Origin: Corynebacterium pseudogenitalium
GTDB taxonomy: Bacteria > Actinomycetota > Actinomycetes > Mycobacteriales > Mycobacteriaceae
Length of the DNA stretch: 64,000 bases
Assembly (NCBI RefSeq): GCF_024453815.1
Contig: NZ_CP072934.1
Location: 2,294,001-2,358,000 of the forward strand
Direction of reading: 5' to 3'
Shown here: piece after piece, positions 34,950 to 46,722 of the stretch
Numbering within the stretch: position 1 is the first letter of the stretch
Layout of the letters: every line of letters starts with the position of its first letter
The notes under the pieces: generated by a model
The model's input: the letters and a program-made list of their open reading frames with translations, nothing else
Told to the model about the DNA's origin: nothing
Databases searched by the model: none
Position numbers and translations under genes: made by a program

Positions 34950-35117
34950 ACGCGGTCAGTCACCATTGCCTGTCACATTGCTAGTCTCTCTAGCCTCTGA
35001 TGACAGCAACAGCGTGACGACCTCCTTTCGGGTCTGGTGGGGCCCGAACCTAAAGGGCCTGGTGGGGCCCATGGTAGGGCAGCCCGCGCGGTACTACGGT
35101 ACGGCGCGGGCTGTTTT
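34950..35117 (+). promoter_or_regulatory. Orphan leader/attenuator-like region with terminator
   Basis: The terminator AGCCCGCGC / GCGCGGGCT with GTTTTGG after it lies at about 35080-35117. It is preceded by a direct repeat, CTGGTGGGGCCC (about 35032 and 35059), and by several short G/C stems. A GTG-initiated frame through the region contains adjacent Trp codons (RVWWGP), reminiscent of amino-acid leader peptides, but no biosynthetic gene follows. The 34767-35845 gap (1.08 kb) has no other gene that I can support. Confidence 0.35.
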
Positions 35118-35192
35118 GGTTGGGGGGTTGGTTTGCTGACTGCTGACTTTTGACGGCTTCCCCGGTCTGGCAGTCTGGTTGTCTGGTCCGCC

Positions 35193-35330
35193 CTAGAATT
35201 GTTCCCCGGACCTGCAAGTCTCGGGAACTTTCTTCATGGACATGCGTCGCCACCTGGGGAAACTAGAGTGTTAGTCGACGGGAGTGGGCCTAAAACCCAA
35301 AATGGTTCCCGGGCGCAGAACTGAACTTTT
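35193..35330 (+). repeat. Palindromic element C1
   Basis: This is the first of three copies of a unit of about 130 bp recognised by GGGAACTTTCTTC, TGGACATGCGTCGCC, ACCTGGGGAAAC and a closing GGTTCCCGGGCGC. The other copies are at 46779-46910 (inverted) and 47982-48117. C1 and the inverted copy bracket the whole CRISPR-Cas locus. Confidence 0.8.
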
Positions 35331-35358
35331 TTGTTGGGTCGCGAAGCGGTGGTTCGCG

Positions 35359-35387
35359 TTGGATATGACACGGAAAGGCCATATACT
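35359..35387 (+). promoter_or_regulatory. Promoter of a candidate small RNA
   Basis: TTGGAT (35359-35364) and TATACT (35382-35387) are separated by exactly 17 bases. Predicted transcription starts near 35394. Confidence 0.6.
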
Positions 35388-35393
35388 GGGACA

Positions 35394-35464
35394 AGTGAAA
35401 CGGGAAAACGCCCGTACAATACAGGTCACGGGCCCTCACTTTCGTGAGGGCCCGCCCTTTTTGT
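35394..35464 (+). ncRNA. Candidate small RNA of about 70 nt
   Basis: A good promoter directly upstream and a strong terminator define the unit. The stem GGGCCCTCAC (35430-35439) pairs with GTGAGGGCCC (35444-35453) around TTTC, then GCCCTTTTTG. A smaller stem (CGGGAAAACGCCCG) precedes it. No start codon with a ribosome site and a short frame fits inside. It lies between element C1 and the CRISPR array, on the strand opposite to the array transcript. The function is unknown. Confidence 0.5.
35430..35464 (+). terminator. Terminator of the candidate small RNA
   Basis: A perfect 10-bp stem with a TTTC tetraloop is followed by a T-run (35430-35464). Confidence 0.9.
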
Positions 35465-35904
35465 TGGGGTGGCCGGGTCATGGCCGGATATTCTCGGGAG
35501 TATCGATCAGGGTCGACCTGCAACAAACGAATTCGATCCGAGGAGAGGCCGTCGGTCGCTCGTGGCCAATTAGGCAGCGGGGCCCTCCTTCGATGAGGCG
35601 TGCTGGCTGAATTCTCACAACAAATGGCTTGCTACGGCAGAAAATGTATGAATCCTATAACTGCCAAAAGAGCAAGCGACCGCACCAGCACGGGGAACAC
35701 CCTTGAAAACGTATTGCGTTGAGGTTCAACAAGCTCATACCCCGCAAGCACATGGAACGCTAAAGGTCTCACGGTTCTGATCGCGCCAATTAGCCAGAAC
35801 CGCGACGTACCTCGTCACAATGTCTCAGAAAAGAACACACTATGTGGCTCCCCCACCCGCTCGGGGTGCACGGCACGCCAGGCATCCCGATCCAAACCGT
35901 GCTG

Positions 35905-37396
35905 GGCTCATCCCCGCAGGCGCGGGGAAGACGGAAACTTAAGCCCTACCGCCCATCAGACCAGAGGCTCATCCCCGCAGGCGCGGGGAGGATATTTGGG
36001 CCCGCCCACTCGATACCGGCGAGGGCGGCTCATCCCCGCAGGCGCGGGGAGGACCGCACCTGGTACCAGTTCGGGGCGGGGTTGATGGGCTCATCCCCGC
36101 AGGCGCGGGGAGGACTCTGCTGTTGGGTATGCGTCAATTCCGGTGACGGGCTCATCCCCGCGAGCGCGGGGAGGACGGAGTCGGTGACTCCACAGTGGTT
36201 GGCGCATTGGGCTCATCCCCGCGAGCGCGGGGAGGACTCGACCACGACCTACGAGAAGCCCTTCGAATCGGGCTCATCCCCGCGAGCGCGGGGAGGACAC
36301 CATCATTGACCACAACGCCGCCCAGGGTGTGGGCTCATCCCCGCGAGCGCGGGGAGGACGGGGTATGTGATGCATTTTGCGCGGGGGTTTTGGGCTCATC
36401 CCCGCGAGCGCGGGGAGGACTCGAGTTCCTTACTCATTGATTAGCTCCTTTGCGGCTCATCCCCGCGAGCGCGGGGAGGACTAGAGCGTCTTGAGTGGGT
36501 TGAGTTCGCGGTGGGGCTCATCCCCGCGAGCGCGGGGAGGACTTGGATACGTCAAGCATCTGCGCCGAAGACGCGGGCTCATCCCCGCGAGCGCGGGGAG
36601 GACCTTGCCTTACACCTAGTATTCTATGTTACTAGGGGCTCATCCCCGCGAGCGCGGGGAGGACGCGGTGTCATTACGCACAAGGCGGACAACGCCGGGC
36701 TCATCCCCGCGAGCGCGGGGAGGACTTGGAGCATCTAATCGCGCAGAATGATGTGCTGGGCTCATCCCCGCGAGCGCGGGGAGGACTTAGGCAAGATGTT
36801 CGCGTGGACTGGTGACCCGGGCTCATCCCCGCGAGCGCGGGGAGGACTCGACGCCGAAGTTGATGCGGCCTTCTTCGGTGGGCTCATCCCCGCGAGCGCG
36901 GGGAGGACGATGATACGCCAATCGTGCGTCAGACCTACATGGGCTCATCCCCGCGAGCGCGGGGAGGACTGGAAGTACGGCGCGGGCTGCTTCACGTGCT
37001 TGGGCTCATCCCCGCGAGCGCGGGGAGGACGACACCTGGCGCGGGGTGGAGTTCCTGCGTTGGGGCTCATCCCCGCGAGCGCGGGGAGGACTTTTTGCGC
37101 ATTCAATGAACGCCTCCAAATCGGGGCTCATCCCCGCGAGCGCGGGGAGGACGTTCGTGTTGTACAGCTCTGCTTGGTAGCGGGGGGCTCATCCCCGCGA
37201 GCGCGGGGAGGACTGCGGTTTTGACTCGTTTTCCCTGTTGGTACCGGGCTCATCCCCGCGAGCGCGGGGAGGACAAAAGGCCCGCGTGGGGGATTTGATT
37301 CATGTTGGGCTCATCCCCGCGAGCGCGGGGAGGACAAAAGGCCCGCGTGGGGGATTTGATTCATGTTGGGCTCATCCCCGCGAGCGCGGGGAGGAC
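35905..37396 (-). CRISPR. Type I-E CRISPR array, 25 repeats and 24 spacers, read leftward
   Basis: The 28-bp repeats begin every 61 bases from 35905 to 37369, with 33-base spacers. On the minus strand the repeat starts GTCCTCCCCGC, has a CCCCGC-GCTC-GCGGGG stem and ends GATGAGCC, the 5' handle typical of type I-E. Transcription is therefore leftward and the leader lies on the right. Repeats at the left end carry a GCAGGCGC variant and single changes (GGGGAAGAC, GGAGGAT). A badly decayed copy lies at 35846-35873, as expected for the old, distal end. Two adjacent spacers, 37275-37307 and 37336-37368, are identical. A C follows the repeat on the transcribed strand in 22 of 25 cases, probably derived from the PAM. 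Confidence 0.97.
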
Positions 37397-37455
37397 ACTT
37401 GCTGAGCTGCAAGTTTTGGAGCCTGTACCGCATTCTACATACGACTTGCTCTCGA

Positions 37456-37532
37456 AACATAGCCCCGCAAACGCGGGGATTATTATCAGCCCCAAATTTA
37501 CAAGGGCTCATCCCTGCTTCCGCGGGGCTAAT
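37456..37532 (-). ncRNA. Crisp mini-CRISPR: two degenerate repeats around a short spacer (candidate crRNA-like regulator)
   Basis: Reading leftward, the first degenerate repeat (37532-37505) keeps a stem (CCCCGC-GGAA-GCAGGG) and the intact handle ATGAGCC plus C. A spacer-like CTTGTAAATTTGGGG... of 21 bases follows (37504-37484). The second (37483-37456) keeps the stem CCCCGC-GTTT-GCGGGG but has lost the handle. This is the layout of a single crRNA. The spacer start matches the cas3 promoter region at 37592-37604. A TACAAT -10-like box (37585-37580, minus) could start the transcript near 37573. Confidence 0.6.
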
Positions 37533-37579
37533 TTCAAATCTAATACCGCTGGAAACAACGTCCAAACACGACATTCGGC

Positions 37580-37585
37580 ATTGTA
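37580..37585 (-). promoter_or_regulatory. Putative -10 box of the CRISPR leader / mini-CRISPR promoter
   Basis: TACAAT on the minus strand (five of six to consensus) lies in the AT-rich leader, about 48 bases upstream of the first degenerate repeat. A -35 box is not obvious. It would overlap the protospacer-like site at 37592-37604. Confidence 0.35.
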
Positions 37586-37591
37586 ATTAAC

Positions 37592-37604
37592 TTGTACATT
37601 TGGG
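37592..37604 (+). promoter_or_regulatory. Protospacer-like match to the mini-CRISPR spacer in the cas3 promoter
   Basis: TTGTACATTTGGG here versus TTGTAAATTTGGG in the mini-CRISPR spacer gives 12 of 13 identities. The one mismatch is at spacer position 6, a position flipped out and not read by type I-E Cascade. The preceding bases are AAC, with the C matching the base that follows the handle. A 32-base target from here would end at 37623 and cover the -35 box of cas3. Confidence 0.6.
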
Positions 37605-37611
37605 TTACGGG

Positions 37612-37640
37612 TTGCACCGATGTGAAAAGACTGTTATAAC
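37612..37640 (+). promoter_or_regulatory. Probable cas3 (cas operon) promoter
   Basis: TTGCAC (37612-37617) and TATAAC (37635-37640) are 17 bases apart. The predicted start is near 37647, 24 bases before the cas3 ATG. The -35 box is weak, in keeping with a regulated promoter. Confidence 0.5.
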
Positions 37641-37670
37641 TTGAAGCAACATCGACAAAAGGATTTAAAC

Positions 37671-40457
37671 ATGAGGCCCGGACACGAACTGCCAGAAAGC
37701 ACGCTCGAGACAGCTCAGCTGTTCGAAAAGTGGGTTTCGCAGCGCTCCCCGCAGGCGCAGTCACTTTGGGCTAAGTCCGGCGATGACACTGGTCATCTTT
37801 CAGTCCCCCAGCATCTCGTAGATGCAGCATGTTCCGCAGCTGCGGTGTTCGATGTGTGGGTCGCCGATAACATCAAACGCGAGATCGCGGGGCATCTAGG
37901 CATCACCGTCGAGGAGCTCCGCACTTTTTATATTTGGCTCGCTGGCACCCACGACGTGGGAAAAATTACGCGTGCTTTCCAGACCCAGCTTCAAGATCGA
38001 GCCGGGTACGAGCATATCATCAATTCCATTGTCGATACTGGCCTTGACCTCGAAAAAGATGAACTTCCGAAGATGCCGCACGGCAGGAGTTCGGGAGTCA
38101 TCCTGAGGCGCTGGCTGGAAGCACAAGGCATGCCGCGAACGATGGCTACATGGGTTGGGTCGATAGGGGACGCTCACCACGGAGTGGCGTCGACAGGCGA
38201 CGAGAAGTCGGCTATTGAGGCTGTCCTCGAGGAGTACCCAGCGGCATGGCTAGGCGTTCAAGACGAAATTGTGAGCGCAATGACGACGACGCTGCACGCG
38301 CAACCGGTCCTAGACAAAATCGGAAAGATCGAGGACCCCGAGGCAGGGGTTGCGCAGTTCCTGACTGGCTTGGTGGTCATTGCGGACTGGATAGCGTCGA
38401 ATGCTGAGGCGTTTCCGATGGTCGTCGATAAAGGACAGGTCGAGAGGCTGCGGTCGGGGATGGCGCAGACCGACCTCACGGCTCCATGGCACCCAGCTAA
38501 ACCGATCAGCGACATCGACGAGCTGTATCGAGCATCATTTGCCTGGCCCCAACACTTCAATGCGCGCAACGTGCAACGCGCACTCGCTGAAGCTGCCCGG
38601 CGCGCAACCCGGCCCACGCTGTTTATCCTTGAGGCGGAGACTGGCGTCGGTAAGACTGAGGCGGCGCTTGCCGCAGCACACATCATCGCTGATCAGACTG
38701 GCGCACAGGGCATCTACTTTGCGGCCCCCACTATGGCCACTGCGAACGGGCTACTGGAGCGAACCATCGACTGGGCGCGCAACACCTCAGGCGTTGGCGC
38801 TGTCACGTCGCTGTACCTCGCGCACTCCAAAAACCAGCTGTCACGGGCAGCAATGAGTCTGCCGCGCGGAATCGCCGAAGACGAAACGTCGAACCGCGGT
38901 GATGTGATCGCGAGCAGCTGGATGCGGGGGAGACGTCGCGGCCTCCTCTCCAATATTGTCGTTGGCACTATTGACCAAGTCTTAATGATGTCGCTCATGC
39001 AACGCTTTTCGATGCTGCGTCACGCCGCGCTAGCAGGAAAGGTCATCATTTTCGACGAGGTTCATGCCTATGACGCCTACACTTCCGAATACCTCGAAAC
39101 CACACTTGAGTGGCTTGCGTACTACGGCGCGAGCGTCATTATGATGTCTGCGACGCTGCCAGCCCAGCGACGGGCCTCGCTCGTCGAAGCGTACACCGGG
39201 GTGGCTCCCGAGGAAGCACCACACGGCTACCCGCTGATTACGGTCGCCGATGAGTCTGCGACGACGTACATCACGCCACCCCCAAATCCAACCAACATGG
39301 TGGCCACCATCGAGCACATCGACGACTCACTCGACACTCTTCGAGGCACGCTCGACAACCTGCTTATCGACGGCGGCTGCGCCCTTATCATCTGCAACAC
39401 CATTGCCCGCGCCCAAGATGCGTACCGGGAGCTCAAAACCCAGTACGCGGATGACATCGAACTGCACCATGCCGGCTTCATCGCCTGGGAACGATCCCAA
39501 AAGGAAGACGAGCTCCGGGAACAACTCGGCCCGCACGCGCGGCGCGGCGCAGGTCGCCCATACCGCAAAGTTGTTGTTGCAACCCAGGTCGCCGAGCAGA
39601 GTCTGGATATCGACGCCGACGTACTGATCACCGACATCGCGCCGATGGACCTGGCAGTACAACGCGCTGGCCGACTACAGCGTCACAGCCGCCCGGTTGA
39701 TGACCGTCCACCTCAACTACAGGATCCGAAGATCTTTATTCGCGGCGTGCTCTCGCCCCTGCCGACTCCTGAATTCGACGGTGGTGCGAAGGCTATTTAT
39801 GACCCCCAGATTCTTCTTTCCACCCTGCTCCATCTGCCCACGACGTTCCATCGGCCAGACGACATCGAAGAACTCGTCCAGTCAACATATGACCTGGACA
39901 CGACCGTAGTGCCCGACGAGATGCAGCAAATCTGGGATGAAGCCGCTGGAGTAAGCCAACTAAGGCAGCATAACGCGCGAGAACGCTCGAAGTCTTTCCG
40001 GACTCCATCCCCGTTCTGCTCGACTCGACTCAATGAATTCTTCAAGGACAGTAAGGCCGTGCTGAACCTGGACAGGGAAGAAGCCGGCGCCGCGCAGGTT
40101 CGCGACGCGGAGCCCACTGTCGAAGTGATACCCATCATCGAGACTGACTACGGGTACCGGCTATGGGGCGTCGATAAGGAAGTACTTGCCGACGCCGAGC
40201 CTGACTATCAGACGGCATTCCAACTCGCATCAAGCACTGTGCGACTCCCGGCGCGCCTGACGCGATACGAGAGCGACTTCAACATCGTCATGGATGCGCT
40301 CGAGGAAAATACCCCTGTCACCTGGAGTAAGCACTACCTACTCAACGGCCAACTCGCACTTCCCCTCGACGAGGACGGCGAAACAAGGATCGGCCGATTC
40401 CTCGTTCGCTACAGCAGCGAGCTCGGAATCGAAGTCTCGTTCGAAAGGGGTGAGTAG
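37671..40457 (+). CDS. cas3: CRISPR-associated helicase-nuclease Cas3 (type I-E)
   Basis: The protein has 928 residues. An N-terminal HD nuclease domain carries GTHDVGK (residues 92-98). The SF2 helicase has Walker A (EAETGVGKTEAAL, about residue 320) and a DEVH box (IIFDEVHAYD, about residue 460), and the late motif VQRAGRLQRH. It is recruited by Cascade to degrade target DNA. ATG 37671 is chosen because AAAGGA lies nine bases upstream; the in-frame TTG at 37641 overlaps the -10 region. It is the first gene of the cas operon, with the array on its left transcribed divergently. Confidence 0.95.
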   Translation: MRPGHELPESTLETAQLFEKWVSQRSPQAQSLWAKSGDDTGHLSVPQHLVDAACSAAAVFDVWVADNIKREIAGHLGITVEELRTFYIWLAGTHDVGKITRAFQTQLQDRAGYEHIINSIVDTGLDLEKDELPKMPHGRSSGVILRRWLEAQGMPRTMATWVGSIGDAHHGVASTGDEKSAIEAVLEEYPAAWLGVQDEIVSAMTTTLHAQPVLDKIGKIEDPEAGVAQFLTGLVVIADWIASNAEAFPMVVDKGQVERLRSGMAQTDLTAPWHPAKPISDIDELYRASFAWPQHFNARNVQRALAEAARRATRPTLFILEAETGVGKTEAALAAAHIIADQTGAQGIYFAAPTMATANGLLERTIDWARNTSGVGAVTSLYLAHSKNQLSRAAMSLPRGIAEDETSNRGDVIASSWMRGRRRGLLSNIVVGTIDQVLMMSLMQRFSMLRHAALAGKVIIFDEVHAYDAYTSEYLETTLEWLAYYGASVIMMSATLPAQRRASLVEAYTGVAPEEAPHGYPLITVADESATTYITPPPNPTNMVATIEHIDDSLDTLRGTLDNLLIDGGCALIICNTIARAQDAYRELKTQYADDIELHHAGFIAWERSQKEDELREQLGPHARRGAGRPYRKVVVATQVAEQSLDIDADVLITDIAPMDLAVQRAGRLQRHSRPVDDRPPQLQDPKIFIRGVLSPLPTPEFDGGAKAIYDPQILLSTLLHLPTTFHRPDDIEELVQSTYDLDTTVVPDEMQQIWDEAAGVSQLRQHNARERSKSFRTPSPFCSTRLNEFFKDSKAVLNLDREEAGAAQVRDAEPTVEVIPIIETDYGYRLWGVDKEVLADAEPDYQTAFQLASSTVRLPARLTRYESDFNIVMDALEENTPVTWSKHYLLNGQLALPLDEDGETRIGRFLVRYSSELGIEVSFERGE

Positions 40458-40521
40458 TGGTGTCCCCTCCACCGCTACGCTGTAGTCATACGCACAACAA
40501 TGAGAGAAAGGAGTGATGAAC

Positions 40522-42219
40522 GTGACATTCAACCTCGTACATGAACCGTGGATCTGCACCACAACGACTGACGGCGACAAAGTCCTCAGCTTGCAGCAAA
40601 TTTTCGACGGCACCGAGCAGCCACTCAGCGTCGTTGGCGACTCACCGACACAGGACTACGCGGTGCTCCGAGTGCTGCTTGCCATTTACTGGCGAGCGCA
40701 CCACCATCACCTCAAGAGTTCAGTACCCACCGGCCGACGAAGCCGAGGTTTCCGCTGGGAGTCGTGGTTCCAGGAACAGCGCAACCAGGCGAGACAGCAC
40801 CAGCGCGATGACATCGTTCTTGCTTATCTGAAAGAATACGAACACCGCTTCAATCTGATCGACGATGAAGTGCCGTTCATGCAGGTCGCAAACCTGCATA
40901 CCAGCAAGAATTCAAACTCACCCATCTCGCGGATTCTCCCAGACGCCGAAGCAGATTTCTTCACCATGCGCACCGGCGCAGGGCGCGCCTCCATTTCGTT
41001 CCCGGAGGCAGCCAGGTGGCTGATCCACCAGCACGCCTACGATTACTCCGGTATCAAATCTGGCGCTGCAGATGACCCGCGCGCCTCAGGTGGCAAAGGC
41101 TACCCGATCGGGACCGGGTGGGCTGGCATGACCGGCGGAACGGTCGTACGCGGCGACACACTGCAAGAAACACTGGTGCTCAATACGGTAAAGGAAGCAG
41201 TAGACCCGACGGCCACCGGAGATTTACCGGCCTGGGAACGCGACCCCGATACCGCTAACCAGCGATTGTTCGACCCCAGTGCGCCCAAGGAAGGCGTGAT
41301 GCCGAACGGCCCTGCTGACTTGGCAACCTGGCAAACCCGACGCATCCGGCTCTTCCCAGAGGGAGACCGCGTCACCAGAGTGCTCGTCTGCAATGGTGAC
41401 CGCATCCCAGACGCAGGAAAGAATGTTTTCGGCGACCCGATGACGCCATACCGGTACAGCCCGAATCAGAGTAAGAAAGACCTCACCGCGTACTACCCGA
41501 AGCCATACGATTCAGAGCGCACCGTGTGGAACTCGATCGATGCACTCCTTGTCAGCGAAAATGACGCCGGGTTTGGCGGAAAGAACCTGGCCCCGATCAA
41601 ACCCGCAACACTCGCAAATCTGGCGGAGATTGCCGACGTGACCGGGGAGCAAGAACTGCTCGACATCGCCATTGTCTCCATGGCTTACGGCCCTCAGAGT
41701 TCTTCTGTCGGCACCGTGATCAGCGGCGAAATCGGGCTGCCCCTCTATCTGCTGCAGAACAATGAGTATTCCACCACCGACCGGCAACGTGTCCGCGCGG
41801 CCGCCCAGGCGGTGCGCGATACAGCGGTTTGCCTCGGCTGGTTTGAAGGACAACTCGCGGTCGCGGCAGGCGGAGAGTACAGCTTCGGCACCAAGTCGGT
41901 GGACCGACTCTACGCCCTTCTCGAACCCGAGTTCATGACGTGGCTCCGGAATCTCAACATCGACGACGTAGCCTCCGAGTGCGTGCGCTGGCAGGAACTC
42001 GTCCGGGATAGCGCACTCGAGCTTGCAGCGGAACTCGTCCGAGGAGCAGGACCCAAAGCCATGATCGGCCGCCTCGATAGCACTGAAGACGGCAAAGGCC
42101 GTGTGATCAACGCCGGATCCATCCATAACCAGCTGCTTCGGAAGCTGCGCGACGCCCTTCCGCTTCTTGCCCAGCGAAACGCCGACCGCACATCACAACA
42201 GGGAGAAAACCATGACTAA
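40522..42219 (+). CDS. cse1: Cascade large subunit Cse1 (CasA/Cas8e)
   Basis: This 565-residue protein has the family N-terminus TFNLVHEPWI and the usual length. It recognises the PAM and recruits Cas3. The GTG at 40522 has AAAGGAG at an eight-base distance and is preferred; ATG 40516, two bases after the same ribosome site, is the alternative. It is separated from cas3 by about 60 bases and overlaps cse2 by eight bases. Confidence 0.93.
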   Translation: MTFNLVHEPWICTTTTDGDKVLSLQQIFDGTEQPLSVVGDSPTQDYAVLRVLLAIYWRAHHHHLKSSVPTGRRSRGFRWESWFQEQRNQARQHQRDDIVLAYLKEYEHRFNLIDDEVPFMQVANLHTSKNSNSPISRILPDAEADFFTMRTGAGRASISFPEAARWLIHQHAYDYSGIKSGAADDPRASGGKGYPIGTGWAGMTGGTVVRGDTLQETLVLNTVKEAVDPTATGDLPAWERDPDTANQRLFDPSAPKEGVMPNGPADLATWQTRRIRLFPEGDRVTRVLVCNGDRIPDAGKNVFGDPMTPYRYSPNQSKKDLTAYYPKPYDSERTVWNSIDALLVSENDAGFGGKNLAPIKPATLANLAEIADVTGEQELLDIAIVSMAYGPQSSSVGTVISGEIGLPLYLLQNNEYSTTDRQRVRAAAQAVRDTAVCLGWFEGQLAVAAGGEYSFGTKSVDRLYALLEPEFMTWLRNLNIDDVASECVRWQELVRDSALELAAELVRGAGPKAMIGRLDSTEDGKGRVINAGSIHNQLLRKLRDALPLLAQRNADRTSQQGENHD

Positions 42220-42841
42220 ACCCACCCTCCGCGCCGCAGTAGGGGCAACGGCGACGCGGCTACAGAACCACTACCTAGAGCAAGCCCATACCGCTCTAGG
42301 AGCTAGCGCCCGCGGATCGCTTGCCGACCTGCGCAAATATGCCTCAATAGGATTGGAGCATAACCCGCTCGCACTCCAAGACGTGCTCATGCTGCTGCAA
42401 CCGGAACTCAGTGATCAAGAACTGGGAAAGTCTGACAAGCCCTCCCCAAGCGAGTACGCAGCGTTCTACGCACTCGCCCTGTTCGGGGTCCACATGCAAA
42501 GTGCACGCACACCGGCGCACAAGCAGGGAGATTCGTTCGCACTCGCATGTGGTCAGCTCTACAGAAAAACTGAGTCCAACTCAATAAAGCAGCGGTTCGA
42601 CGCGATGCAGGTTGCTCTGGATTTCCCATCACGGATCACCCATCTACGTTCACTCGTCAGCCTGCTTCGCTCGCAAGACTTGCCGTTTGATTACGGGCAA
42701 TTCGCCGGGGATCTCCGATCGCTCCAAAACCCAAAGTACCGGGACGGCGTTTTGCTGCGGTGGGGTAGAGACTTCGCCATCGGAACACTCCGGCCCTCTG
42801 CCCAGGCAGAAGCACAAGAACTCGACAACGCAATCCGCTAA
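42212..42841 (+). CDS. cse2: Cascade small subunit Cse2 (CasB)
   Basis: This 209-residue, mostly helical protein occurs in type I-E as a dimer along the belly of Cascade and stabilises the R-loop. It is identified by position between cse1 and cas7, its size, and family features such as LADLRKYA near the N-terminus and FDAMQVALDFPSRITHLRSLVSLL. The ATG 42212 lies inside the end of cse1 with GGGAGAAA upstream. Confidence 0.9.
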   Translation: MTKPTLRAAVGATATRLQNHYLEQAHTALGASARGSLADLRKYASIGLEHNPLALQDVLMLLQPELSDQELGKSDKPSPSEYAAFYALALFGVHMQSARTPAHKQGDSFALACGQLYRKTESNSIKQRFDAMQVALDFPSRITHLRSLVSLLRSQDLPFDYGQFAGDLRSLQNPKYRDGVLLRWGRDFAIGTLRPSAQAEAQELDNAIR

Positions 42842-42865
42842 CTTCTACTTTTCGAAAGGACAATC

Positions 42866-43996
42866 ATGTCTCTCATCATCGATATCCACGCACTTCAGAC
42901 AGTCCCGCCTTCACTCATCAACCGCGACGATACCGGCGCCCCTAAGACAGCCGTGTTCGGCGGCGTCCCACGTCAGCGCGTCTCCTCCCAGTCCTGGAAG
43001 CGCGCAATCCGCAAGTACTTCGCCGAGCACTTCGATCCAGAATCCATCGGTGACCGCTCCAAGCGCCTTCCAGAAAAGATCGCGAAGCAGCTCGCCAAAG
43101 TTGCCGGCATCTCCGATGAAGACGCCATCAAGCGCACGGAGCAGCTCTTCAACGCTGTAAAGATCAAGACCGTCGTAGAGAAGCCAAAGAAGGGCGACGA
43201 CACCGAACACAACCCATGGCCACAAACCACCTACCTGATCTTCCTCAGCCCACAGCAAATCGATCGCGCTGTCCGCGAGCTTGCTGAGCGCGACGGTCAG
43301 AAGTTCACTAAGGCCGAAGCGACTGCCATTTTGGATACCAACCACAGCGTGGACATGTCTATGTTCGGTCGAATGGTTGCTGACGACGCATCCTTCAATG
43401 TCGACGCAGCAGTCCAGGTAGCGCACGCCATCGGCGTGCACGCATCCGCGCCCGAATTCGACTTCTACACCGCCGTCGACGACCTTGCCGAAGAAGGCGA
43501 AGAAACTGGTGCAGGGATGCTCGGCACCGTACAGATGATGTCCTCCAGCCTCTACCGCTACGCCACCATCAACGTCGACGGGCTCAAGAAAAACCTCGAG
43601 TCCGCCGACGCCACGATTAAGGCTGTTGAGCAGTTCATCGAGGCATTCGTCGCGTCCATGCCAACCGGCAAGATCAATACCTTCGCCAACCAGACGCTCC
43701 CCGAGCTCGTCTACGTCACCGTCCGCGATACCCGCCCAGTCTCCCTCGTCACTGCTTTTGAAGACGCGGTGACTGCAACCGAGCAACTCGACCGCCGCCA
43801 CGTAGCAGCAGCACGTCTTGCCGACGAGGCACGCGCAATTCAGGACACCTACGGCTTCGTCCCCACCAGCCAGTACGTCCTCGGTCTCGGCGATATTGCC
43901 GCGCCATTCGACGGCCTCGCAGAGCGCGTAACACTGAAGGAGCTGGGCGAACGCGTCGCAGCCGACGTTGCCACCGCACTAGGTGATGACGCATGA
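42866..43996 (+). CDS. cas7e: Cascade backbone subunit Cas7e (CasC/Cse4)
   Basis: This 376-residue protein has the characteristic start IIDIHALQTVPPSLINRDDTGAPKTAVFGGVPRQRVSSQSWKR (first 20 residues plus continuation), which needs no other comparison. Six copies coat the crRNA in Cascade. CGAAAGGAC precedes the ATG. It overlaps cas5 by ATGA. Codon use is stronger (AAG, CTC, TCC) than in the other cas genes, in keeping with its six-fold stoichiometry. Confidence 0.95.
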   Translation: MSLIIDIHALQTVPPSLINRDDTGAPKTAVFGGVPRQRVSSQSWKRAIRKYFAEHFDPESIGDRSKRLPEKIAKQLAKVAGISDEDAIKRTEQLFNAVKIKTVVEKPKKGDDTEHNPWPQTTYLIFLSPQQIDRAVRELAERDGQKFTKAEATAILDTNHSVDMSMFGRMVADDASFNVDAAVQVAHAIGVHASAPEFDFYTAVDDLAEEGEETGAGMLGTVQMMSSSLYRYATINVDGLKKNLESADATIKAVEQFIEAFVASMPTGKINTFANQTLPELVYVTVRDTRPVSLVTAFEDAVTATEQLDRRHVAAARLADEARAIQDTYGFVPTSQYVLGLGDIAAPFDGLAERVTLKELGERVAADVATALGDDA

Positions 43997-44715
43997 GTTC
44001 CTCCCTACTCCTCCTACTGAAAGGGCCCCTACAGTCATGGGGTGATGAGTCTCGGCACAAAATACGTGCTACTGCGCTCACACCGACGAAATCGGGCATC
44101 ATCGGCCTCATCGCTGCAGCGCAGGGGCGTCGACGAACGGACCCAGTCGAAGACCTCACTCGCCTCCGGCTCGGAGTGCGCGTTGACCAATCAGGCAGCC
44201 TACTGCGTGACTACCAGACGGCCCAGCCCTGGCTTACCGACCCGAACGCATCCGCGGAGCTCATCACCCGATACTTCCTCAGCGACGCTGCGTTCGTAGT
44301 AGCCGTCGAATCGGACGACCGCGCACTGCTAGAGGGCATCGCGGAAGCACTACGCGCTCCCGCATTCCCACTCTTCATGGGCCGAAGGTCATGCCCAGTC
44401 CACCCAGGGCTAGTGATCGGCATCGTCGACACCGACGCGGAAACTGCGCTGCGCGAGCATCCGACATGGTACGCAACAGCCCAACACAAGCGCGAAGCGC
44501 CAAAACACGTCAACTTGGCACTCTACCGGGATGCGGACGAGGAAGAACAAGGCGGAGTCCGGCGACAGGACGTGCCCATAAGCTTCGACCCGCAGCACCG
44601 ACGCTACGGGTGGCGTGACGTTCTGCGCGTAGAGGACGTCGCTATCGATAATCCGGATGGAACTGAATCGCTGGTGGACAGTGACGTTTTCTTCGAAACG
44701 GTGATCAAGGCATGA
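43993..44715 (+). CDS. cas5e: Cascade subunit Cas5e (CasD)
   Basis: This 240-residue RAMP protein has LLLLLKGPLQSWGDESRHKIRAT (family signature GPLQSWG) and TPTKSGIIGLIAAA. It binds the 5' handle of crRNA. It is coupled at both ends by ATGA overlaps (43993-43996 with cas7, 44712-44715 with cas6). Confidence 0.95.
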   Translation: MSSSLLLLLKGPLQSWGDESRHKIRATALTPTKSGIIGLIAAAQGRRRTDPVEDLTRLRLGVRVDQSGSLLRDYQTAQPWLTDPNASAELITRYFLSDAAFVVAVESDDRALLEGIAEALRAPAFPLFMGRRSCPVHPGLVIGIVDTDAETALREHPTWYATAQHKREAPKHVNLALYRDADEEEQGGVRRQDVPISFDPQHRRYGWRDVLRVEDVAIDNPDGTESLVDSDVFFETVIKA

Positions 44716-45422
44716 GCAATACATTCACAAGGATCCTCATTAACCCTGCCCGACGCCAAGGCAGGAGACTGCTCACCGACTCCCAAGCGATGCACGCCGC
44801 CGTACGCAGTGCGTTCCCGCCGGATCTCGATGAGACTGCAGGCCGGGTGCTGTGGCGCGTCGATAGCCACGAGCACACCCACGTGCTCTACATTGTGGGG
44901 CCCGAAAAACCGACCGCTGACTCCATCGTGGAACAGGCAGGGTGGGATACCCGGCCGGCGAAGATCGCCGACTACAACCGCTTCCTCGACAGCATCATGA
45001 AAGGGCAGCGCTGGCGGTTCGAACTTGTCGCCAACCCAACGTATAGCGAGTTTCAGCAGGGTAAACGAGGCAAAGTCAAGGCGCACGTTTCCCCGCGTCA
45101 CCAGCTGGCTTGGCTGCGTAAAAAGTCACTCGCGCATGGGTTTGCGCTCGCACCAGGACTCGATGACGAGGTCAGCGACGAAGAGCGCGCACGCTGGGAT
45201 GCGTTTGAAGCACCGACAGTCATCCAAAGCTGGACCGACGTGTTCCACCGGAAGAAAGCCGACGGTACCAAAGGCAGGCCCGTCCGGATTGCCAAGGCCC
45301 GCTTTTCCGGAGTCCTGGAAGTCACTGACGTCGAAGCTTTTCGACGCACCCTCACCCAAGGCATCGGACGTGGTCGCGGCTACGGTTGTGGCCTCCTGAC
45401 GCTGGCCGATCCCACCAAATAG
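44712..45422 (+). CDS. cas6e: crRNA-processing endoribonuclease Cas6e (CasE)
   Basis: This 236-residue RAMP protein cuts the repeat below its hairpin to leave the eight-base handle. The family features are an early TRILINPARRQGRRLL region, a basic central region, and the glycine-rich C-terminal loop GIGRGRGYGCGLLTLA. It overlaps cas5 by ATGA. The repeat stem CCCCGC-GCTC-GCGGGG is its substrate. Confidence 0.94.
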   Translation: MSNTFTRILINPARRQGRRLLTDSQAMHAAVRSAFPPDLDETAGRVLWRVDSHEHTHVLYIVGPEKPTADSIVEQAGWDTRPAKIADYNRFLDSIMKGQRWRFELVANPTYSEFQQGKRGKVKAHVSPRHQLAWLRKKSLAHGFALAPGLDDEVSDEERARWDAFEAPTVIQSWTDVFHRKKADGTKGRPVRIAKARFSGVLEVTDVEAFRRTLTQGIGRGRGYGCGLLTLADPTK

Positions 45423-45430
45423 GTGCTGAG

Positions 45431-46369
45431 ATGCCAACGCCTCATGAACTGCCGATCACTCGCCGTGCACTCGCGCGAATGAGTGATCGGCTGTCCTTCC
45501 TTTACGCGGAACGGTGCGTGGTCAACCGTGACGGCAACGCGTTGACGATCACCGACCAACGCGGCACCGCACACGTCCCCGCGACACAACTTGCGGTGCT
45601 CCTGCTCGGCCCCGGAACCCGGATCACCTACGCCGCGATGGCACTCCTCGGCGACGCAGGCACCAGCACAGTTTGGGTCGGCGAGCGCGGTGTCCGGTAC
45701 TACGCCTCCGGCCGCCCACCCGCGAAGTCATCGCGGATGGCGCTGCTCCAAGCGGAAGTCGTAACGCACCAGCGCAAACGGCTTGACTGCGCCCGGAAAA
45801 TGTACAGCCTCAGATTCCCGGGAGAGGACGTGTCCACTCTCACCATGGCGCAGCTGCGCGGCAGGGAAGGCTCCCGCATGAAACGTGTCTACGCCGCCGA
45901 AGCCGAACGAACCGGCGTGTACTGGGACCGACGAAGCTACGACCCGCACGACTTCGACTCCGGCACACCCATCAACCAAGCGCTCACTGCGGCAAGCGCA
46001 GCGCTCTACGGCATTGCTCACGCAGTCATTGCCGGGCTTGGGTTCGTTCCCGCACTCGGAGTTGTCCACACCGGAACAGACCGCGCGTTCGTCTACGACA
46101 TCGCCGACCTGTACAAAGCCGAGATCGCCATCCCCGCCGCGTTCGACGCAGTAGCTGAAGCGAAAGGGAAACCGCATATCGAGGTGCGACGGAAGGTGCG
46201 CGACGCTGTCGTCGAAAAGCGACTGATGCAGCGCATGGTCAAAGACCTCCAATACGTCATGGACGTACCCGAAGAAGAACTCTACAGCGATGTCGAACTG
46301 ATGCTGTGGAGCGAATTGGAAGTCATCTCTGCAGGCGTCAACTGGGCAGAGGAAGAGGCACTGCAATGA
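45431..46369 (+). CDS. cas1: CRISPR adaptation integrase Cas1
   Basis: The protein has 312 residues. ATG 45431 (MPTPHELPITRRALARMSDR) is eight bases after the cas6 stop. The catalytic acidic and His residues lie in the regions expected for Cas1e (an ALTAASAALYGIAHAVIAGLGF helix and an LGVVHTGTDRAFVYDIADLYK segment containing the His and Asp). It works with Cas2 to insert new spacers at the leader end. The overlap with cas2 is four bases. Confidence 0.95.
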   Translation: MPTPHELPITRRALARMSDRLSFLYAERCVVNRDGNALTITDQRGTAHVPATQLAVLLLGPGTRITYAAMALLGDAGTSTVWVGERGVRYYASGRPPAKSSRMALLQAEVVTHQRKRLDCARKMYSLRFPGEDVSTLTMAQLRGREGSRMKRVYAAEAERTGVYWDRRSYDPHDFDSGTPINQALTAASAALYGIAHAVIAGLGFVPALGVVHTGTDRAFVYDIADLYKAEIAIPAAFDAVAEAKGKPHIEVRRKVRDAVVEKRLMQRMVKDLQYVMDVPEEELYSDVELMLWSELEVISAGVNWAEEEALQ

Positions 46370-46722
46370 TGGTGCTCATCGTCACCGCATGCCCGGCGGG
46401 CCTGCGCGGCGACCTGACAAAGTGGCTCATGGAACTCAGCCCAGGTGTCTTCGTGGGCACCCCATCAGCTCGCATCCGAGACCTACTCTGGGACCGCACC
46501 ATCGAGCTCTGCAAAGACGGCAGGGCACTGCTCGTCTACAGCTCAAATAACGAGCAAGGCATGGAGTTCCGCGAGCACCGGCACGCCTGGAAACCGACAG
46601 ACTTCGACGGCATTACGCTCATGATGCGCGAGAACGCGCGAGCACCAAAACGGCGCACCGGGTGGAGCAAGGCACGACGGCAGCGCATCGCATACGAGCG
46701 AGACAGGCGGACTTCGTCTTAG
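46366..46722 (+). CDS. cas2: CRISPR adaptation protein Cas2e
   Basis: This 118-residue Cas2 of type I-E has the MMVLIVTACPAGLRGDLTKWL start and the EISPGVF/VGTPSARIRDLLW-type middle (here ELSPGVFVGTPSARIRDLLW). The C-terminal extension of about 30 residues is rich in Arg/Lys. It overlaps cas1 by ATGA and is the last cas gene. Confidence 0.95.
   Translation: MMVLIVTACPAGLRGDLTKWLMELSPGVFVGTPSARIRDLLWDRTIELCKDGRALLVYSSNNEQGMEFREHRHAWKPTDFDGITLMMRENARAPKRRTGWSKARRQRIAYERDRRTSS

Follow-up and report, generated by a model that had tools for sequence, protein, structure and literature searches.

What does a short, CRISPR-like unit do when it lies outside the array, directly in front of the cas genes? 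This question is raised by the type I-E locus of Corynebacterium pseudogenitalium, in which the array is read leftward and is followed by cas3-cse1-cse2-cas7-cas5-cas6e-cas1-cas2, read rightward. The window, which is the whole stretch of 64,000 nucleotides that was analysed, comes from a 2.39-Mb genome in a single contig, and its Cas3 protein is identical to that of Corynebacterium sp. NML98-0116. Array and cas3 are separated by a gap of 274 nt, and both the unit and a sequence that it matches are found inside this gap. The closest known elements are CreR RNAs, described in the excerpts consulted as crRNA-like RNAs encoded near a cas operon that partly match a cas promoter and have no toxin partner (PMC13131331, PMC12737573, PMC12948488). 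The features of the locus, named accordingly, are as follows.

35904-37396, minus strand: main type I-E array, 25 repeats and 24 spacers of 32 nt in 61-nt units; the repeat in minus-strand sequence is GTCCTCCCCGCGCTCGCGGGGATGAGCCC
37532-37504, minus strand: psiR1, degenerate type I-E repeat in which one pair of the stem is broken
37511-37504, minus strand: psiR1 handle ATGAGCCC, intact
37503-37484, minus strand: CreR spacer, 20 nt by repeat register, with the pairing seed at 37503-37491
37483-37455, minus strand: psiR2, degenerate repeat, handle lost
37478-37463, minus strand: psiR2 stem CCCCGC/GCGGGG, intact
37537..37565, minus strand: putative creR/leader promoter, TTGGAC (37565-37560), 17 nt, TAGATT (37542-37537)
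37589..37591, plus strand: PAM AAC of the CreR target, the three bases directly before it
37592..37604, plus strand: CreR target, matched at 12/13; a protospacer of 20 nt would extend to 37611
37612..37640, plus strand: putative cas3 promoter, TTGCAC (37612-37617), 17 nt, TATAAC (37635-37640)
37671..40457, plus strand: cas3, ATG at 37671, in-frame TTG at 37641
40516..42219, plus strand: cse1 (PF09481)
42167..45422, plus strand: cse2, cas7, cas5 and cas6e
45386..46722, plus strand: cas1 and cas2, given as open frames whose true starts may be later

An ordinary type I-E unit has near-identical 29-nt repeats and a 32-nt spacer, whereas here two degenerate repeats near the cas operon, as in CreR, enclose 20 nt. 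The preliminary description had recognized the degenerate repeats around a short spacer correctly, but its spacer length of 21 gave way to 20 nt once the repeat register was followed. Folded as one RNA, psiR1 and psiR2 form a long hairpin (-46 kcal/mol, z -4.7) that could compete with the two separate stems needed by Cas6e. A search of 35000-38500 against Rfam returned three matches (E up to 1), none of which reached its gathering score or fell on the mini-array.

The start of the guide, TTGTAAATTTGGG (37503-37491), is identical to 37592-37604 at 12 of 13 positions and differs at position 6, as had been read from the sequence before. TTGTACATTTGGG with at most one mismatch occurs at two places in the 2.39-Mb genome, which are the guide and the target only; read backwards as a control, it also occurs at two places, both elsewhere in the genome. 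When AAN followed by the seed was searched with positions 6 and 12 left free, one perfect site was obtained in the genome, the target upstream of cas3, together with two further sites carrying one mismatch (backwards control: 0). In the region of about 570 nt, with both strands counted and uniform base composition, 1.7e-5 perfect sites are expected, and the match between guide and target thus exceeds chance.

The target stands beside AAC, which agrees with the PAM published for the genus: for type I-E systems, AC is given for Corynebacterium and AAC for Bifidobacterium (PMC8482600, in part), and AAG for Streptomyces avermitilis (PMC4762764, in part). The genus PAM was used since the array spacers of NML98-0116, compared with phages by blastn, gave 13 records of only 60-80% partial similarity, unusable for deriving a PAM. 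The preliminary description had also counted the C next to the handle as part of the match. It does match, but the C at position -1 is a PAM base: in 50 loci the last base of the handle varies (C 19, G 14, T 11, A 6), while the PAM is AAC in 41 of them.

A consensus promoter scan of 37380-37720 found none, and the two promoters were therefore placed by conservation. The likely cas3 -35 and -10 boxes are kept in the locus of a sister species (L033), and the likely creR/leader promoter has a form common to both loci. In 44 of 57 loci with a guide/target match (defined below) the motif TANNNT lies 4-30 nt before psiR1, compared with a shuffled mean of 20.7 (sd 3.7), which suggests that creR may have its own promoter starting near psiR1. 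The guide is thus partly complementary to the putative promoter of its own cas operon. The matched stretch ends 7 bp before the likely cas3 -35 box. It had been proposed that a 32-bp R-loop (37592-37623) covers this box; with a spacer of 20 nt such an R-loop is not expected, the guided R-loop would reach at most 37592-37611, and the -35 box (37612-37617) would instead meet the edge of the Cascade complex. Nor does the site overlie the -35 region of the leftward promoter, as had been suggested, because the candidate TTGGAC (37565-37560) is about 23-24 bp away from the PAM.

The layout likewise resembles CreA of the CreTA modules, in which a psiR1-spacer-psiR2 unit with degenerate repeats pairs through positions 1-5 and 7-11 beside a proper PAM (PMC8501985, PMC9458426, excerpts); in type I-B, it is nucleotides 1-5 and 7-11 of creA that base-pair to the target promoter (PMC8501985, same excerpt). 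The guide might accordingly serve an addictive module by repressing a small toxin RNA made from the same promoter, and toxin RNAs are sometimes very short. The target of CreA is a toxin RNA, however, whereas the promoter targeted in the window runs straight into cas3, with about 30 nt from the -10 box to the ATG and no further gene between, and we regard a toxin module as improbable here, although a toxin RNA within the 5' stretch is conceivable.

If the unit is a CreR, guide and target should change together between species. One genome per species of the genus was taken, and 96 of 242 genomes carried Cse1: the window, G203, which lay too near a contig end and was not fetched, and 94 that were fetched. 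L094, in which no cas3 was found, and L069 and L111, whose contigs end inside cas3, were dropped, as were L036, L034, L102 and L035 as copies, with L033 kept for its species. This left 91 distinct loci to be scanned. A first scan with a loose handle was noisy from self-matches of arrays and was replaced by stricter scans.

In the cleanest test, only the handle served to choose the guide, and the target was chosen on plain identity across 13 positions, with no use of PAM or position weights. An isolated psiR1-like handle, kept in register, was present in 62 of the 91 loci, and 54 of these 62 guides matched the region upstream of their own cas3 at at least 10 of 13 positions. All 54 matched sites were preceded by AAN (AAC 44, AAT 6, AAG 3, AAA 1). 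When guides were placed on other loci, at least 10 positions matched in 32 of 310 trials and never more than 11, and the best sites had AA before them in only about 9% of cases. The preliminary description had offered covariation of spacer and promoter site among orthologous loci as one of the points on which its reading would stand or fall, and the outcome was strongly positive.

Identity at positions 1 to 13 of the 54 pairs was 54, 53, 53, 54, 52, 19, 54, 54, 52, 51, 49, 13 and 48, and from position 14 on it was 40, 30, 27, 12 and 8. Positions 6 and 12 therefore agree at close to the chance rate, and pairing tails off beyond about 16 nt, by position 17. In type I-E Cascade every sixth base is flipped out (PMC5904413, in part), and the two free positions are, to judge from these alignments, the 6-nt footprint of Cascade. 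The earlier idea that a mini-guide of CRISPR origin is directed at the cas3 promoter of its own locus, position 6 being ignored, gains support from this genus-wide covariation.

Scored over the 11 seed positions, 52 of the 62 loci reached at least 10 with AA before the site, and 54 reached at least 9. The eight remaining loci were L040, L046, L052, L077, L107, L065, L073 and L086. In L040 the scan had taken an array-end repeat, and its real element matches in the 91-locus scan; L065, L073 and L086 showed no convincing target site for the handle-picked guide. Where the array lies beside cas3, a psiR1-spacer-psiR2 unit matching the own cas3-upstream region was present in 13 distinct loci, the weakest being L055, where 9 of 11 seed positions agree; L034 would make a fourteenth but duplicates the window species and was left out. 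Between the window and its sister locus L033 the guides differ at positions 5, 7 and 8, and the targets differ likewise.

The scan of all 91 loci gave matches in 58 and none in the other 33, so that the guide/target pair is not universal in Corynebacterium type I-E loci. Shifting the handle by 1-6 bases reduced the 58 loci to 0-6, and other PAM dinucleotides gave 0-4 loci, except for CCN with 21, which are probably array repeats. Perfect scores of 11/11 were obtained in 39 loci with positions 6 and 12 free, in 3-4 loci for six other free pairs and in 17 when positions 1-11 were scored plainly. At 10/11 the other free pairs gave 23-26 loci, because the scans overlap in the positions scored, and plain positions 1-11 gave 48. 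The match in L043 was judged spurious, as guide and target lay on one strand with no repeat before the guide, and so were second matches in L050 and L103; without L043, 57 loci remained for the counts of stem, length, motif and clusters.

The psiR2 stem had at least 6 pairs in 57/57 loci. Matched versus unmatched differences over these loci numbered 618 versus 48 in the seed, a count inflated by the selection of pairs for matching, and 5 versus 135 at positions 6 and 12. Although one row was used per species, related species are not independent, and guides were also clustered at 8/13 by single link, which yielded 14 clusters, one of them holding 37. With one row per cluster, position 6 was identical in 2/14, position 12 in 5/14 and every other position of 1-13 in 13-14 of 14, and the PAM was AAC in 10 and AAT in 4.

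The base composition of the target was uneven at one of the free positions. Target position 6 was A in 43 of 57 loci, compared with 112/627 at the other seed positions, and in 10 of the 14 guide clusters with one row each (p 7e-4 against downstream A content); target position 12 was A in 28 of 57. In the window, target position 6 (37597) is C. Such a bias towards A at position 6, a base that Cascade flips out, would add a preference not yet described.

These data bear on three other explanations. The unit might be a leader structure needed for transcription of the array or for spacer acquisition, as its location in the leader and its strong fold would allow; many matched loci, however, have no array upstream of cas3 in the stretch examined and keep guide and target nonetheless, and this explanation is very unlikely. 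Still harder to maintain is a DNA-level motif of which one DNA-binding protein would recognise both copies. Two nearly identical copies do stand some 90 bp from each other, but from species to species their sequence changes a great deal and the match persists, free only at 6 and 12, and the guide always follows directly after a repeat handle and the target always stands beside AAN, unlike a protein site. That both repeats are degenerate would suit a decayed array remnant with a chance match to the promoter, which is scarcely credible given that guide and target covary in dozens of loci, PAM and 6-nt register included, and that the mini-array stands at the leader end, where arrays are youngest.

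Since the same pairing is made with different letters in many species, the immune system probably uses its own guide against its own genes. The element is CreR, a known kind of cas regulator with type I-E among its reported types, and it is highly probable that this minimal degenerate type I-E CRISPR leads Cascade to its own cas3 promoter and lowers its own operon. Transcription, processing, loading, binding, repression and release are all steps that we infer from the sequence. Cas6e would probably cleave the RNA at the handle of psiR1 and at the stem of psiR2. Once the product is loaded into Cascade, the interrupted match of 11-16 nt together with the AAC PAM would lead Cascade to the cas3 promoter. 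With pairing so short, Cascade would sit on the promoter without efficient cutting by Cas3, could block access to the -35 box and might lower the expression of cas3 and of the operon that follows. Derepression would come from ordinary crRNAs or from anti-CRISPRs disabling Cascade; repression by CreR is reported to be relieved by competing crRNAs or anti-CRISPRs (PMC13131331, PMC12737573, PMC12948488, excerpts).

In E. coli more than 18 bp are needed for interference and priming (PMC5904413, in part), so the short pairing should spare the AAC-flanked target from cutting. In the same excerpt promoter blocking by Cascade drops sharply with 6 PAM-distal mismatches (PMC5904413), which means that 13-16 paired bases might repress weakly. 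For type I-B Cascade, guides of up to 26 nt repress without cutting, and guides of 11-25 nt do repress (PMC10551041, in part). That repression is engineered, whereas the window element is natural and of type I-E; a further difference from the engineered short guides is that 22 of 57 loci have spacers of 31-32 nt and pair mainly over the first 13-16 bases.

Measured from the handle to the psiR2 stem loop, spacers fell into two classes, with 20 nt in 32 loci, 19 nt in 3, 31 nt in 10 and 32 nt in 12 (n=57), and no intermediate length, even 26 nt, occurred among the 57 loci. A looser stem rule gave 18-20 and 30-32 nt and one spacer of 43 nt (L051, where another stem was chosen). On a cas3 tree of 56 loci, built with a quick method and with long branches flagged, the length class changes 6 times, at least 5 of them over starred branches. 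Pairing is concentrated in the first 13-16 nt in either class, and the long class shows a small rise at positions 20 and 21 (12/22 each). The step of 12 nt corresponds to two 6-nt Cascade modules and would equal two Cas7 and one Cse2. It is conceivable, with the chances slightly against it, that CreR has two interchangeable formats of about 20 and about 32 nt, and that the Cascade assembled on the short one is smaller, lacking two Cas7 and perhaps one Cse2, and acts as a natural repressor-only effector.

A second type I-E clade has a cas3 that is about 33% identical and handles ATGATCC and ATGTTCC, and its guide is often on the plus strand with a minus-strand target just before cas3. Four loci of this clade (L046, L052, L077 and L107) have their best site 2890-2945 nt past the estimated start of cas3 and about 50-120 nt ahead of the Cse1 match; it carries PAM AAC and agrees with the guide at 10-11 of 11 seed positions. 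In these four, the genes controlled by CreR would be those of Cascade rather than cas3. Outside the genus, Cse1 was found in 73 of 394 genomes of the class, the window's own included; 40 loci were fetched and cas3 was found in 39. Candidate CreR units were detected in 5 of these 39 (L144, L146, L153, L156 and L171). Shifted handles gave 0-3, but the wrong PAM ACN gave 5 and CCN 12, so that a spread to other Actinomycetes is suggestive only.

Elsewhere, CreR has been reported for types I-B, I-E and V-A (PMC13131331, PMC12737573, PMC12948488, excerpts), and it does not appear in the passages on actinomycete CRISPR drawn from PMC12231136. The window element shares with CreR its crRNA-like form, its place near the cas operon, the partial match to a cas promoter and the lack of a toxin partner, as read from the sequence. 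A type I-E example from Corynebacterium had been called undescribed; CreR was already reported for type I-E, and what stands is that none was found named from this genus. This comes from a literature search outside which the founding CreR paper, reportedly Liu et al. 2023, Cell Host Microbe 31:1481, remained. Judged from reviews on CreR, three things seem to be new: the record across the genus, the existence of two length classes and the preference for A at target position 6.

If this reading is true, autorepression by CreR would be a common feature of type I-E immunity across the genus, not an oddity, and the natural guide/target pairs would form a large mutational record of how Cascade reads its target: freedom at positions 6 and 12, pairing that extends over about 16 nt, and AAN as the PAM. 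The Corynebacterium pairs would supply dozens of ready test pairs and point to two natural Cascade sizes. It would also be predicted that cas expression in Corynebacterium rises in the presence of anti-CRISPRs against type I-E.

Some minor features of the main array were also observed. Its two leader-proximal spacers (37275-37306 and 37336-37367) are identical to each other, which is a recent duplication or double acquisition, and the copy of the window species with identical cas3 (L034) has different spacers at the leader-proximal positions. Part of one spacer (36975-36992) shares 17/18 bases with 35099-35116, about 1.9 kb away and upstream of the array, and there is an inverted 17-nt match at 35079-35095; this is possibly a partial self-match or chance. 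The four leader-distal repeats (35904-36115) have the loop CAGGC instead of CGAGC on the plus strand, which points to an end of the array that is older or has recombined.
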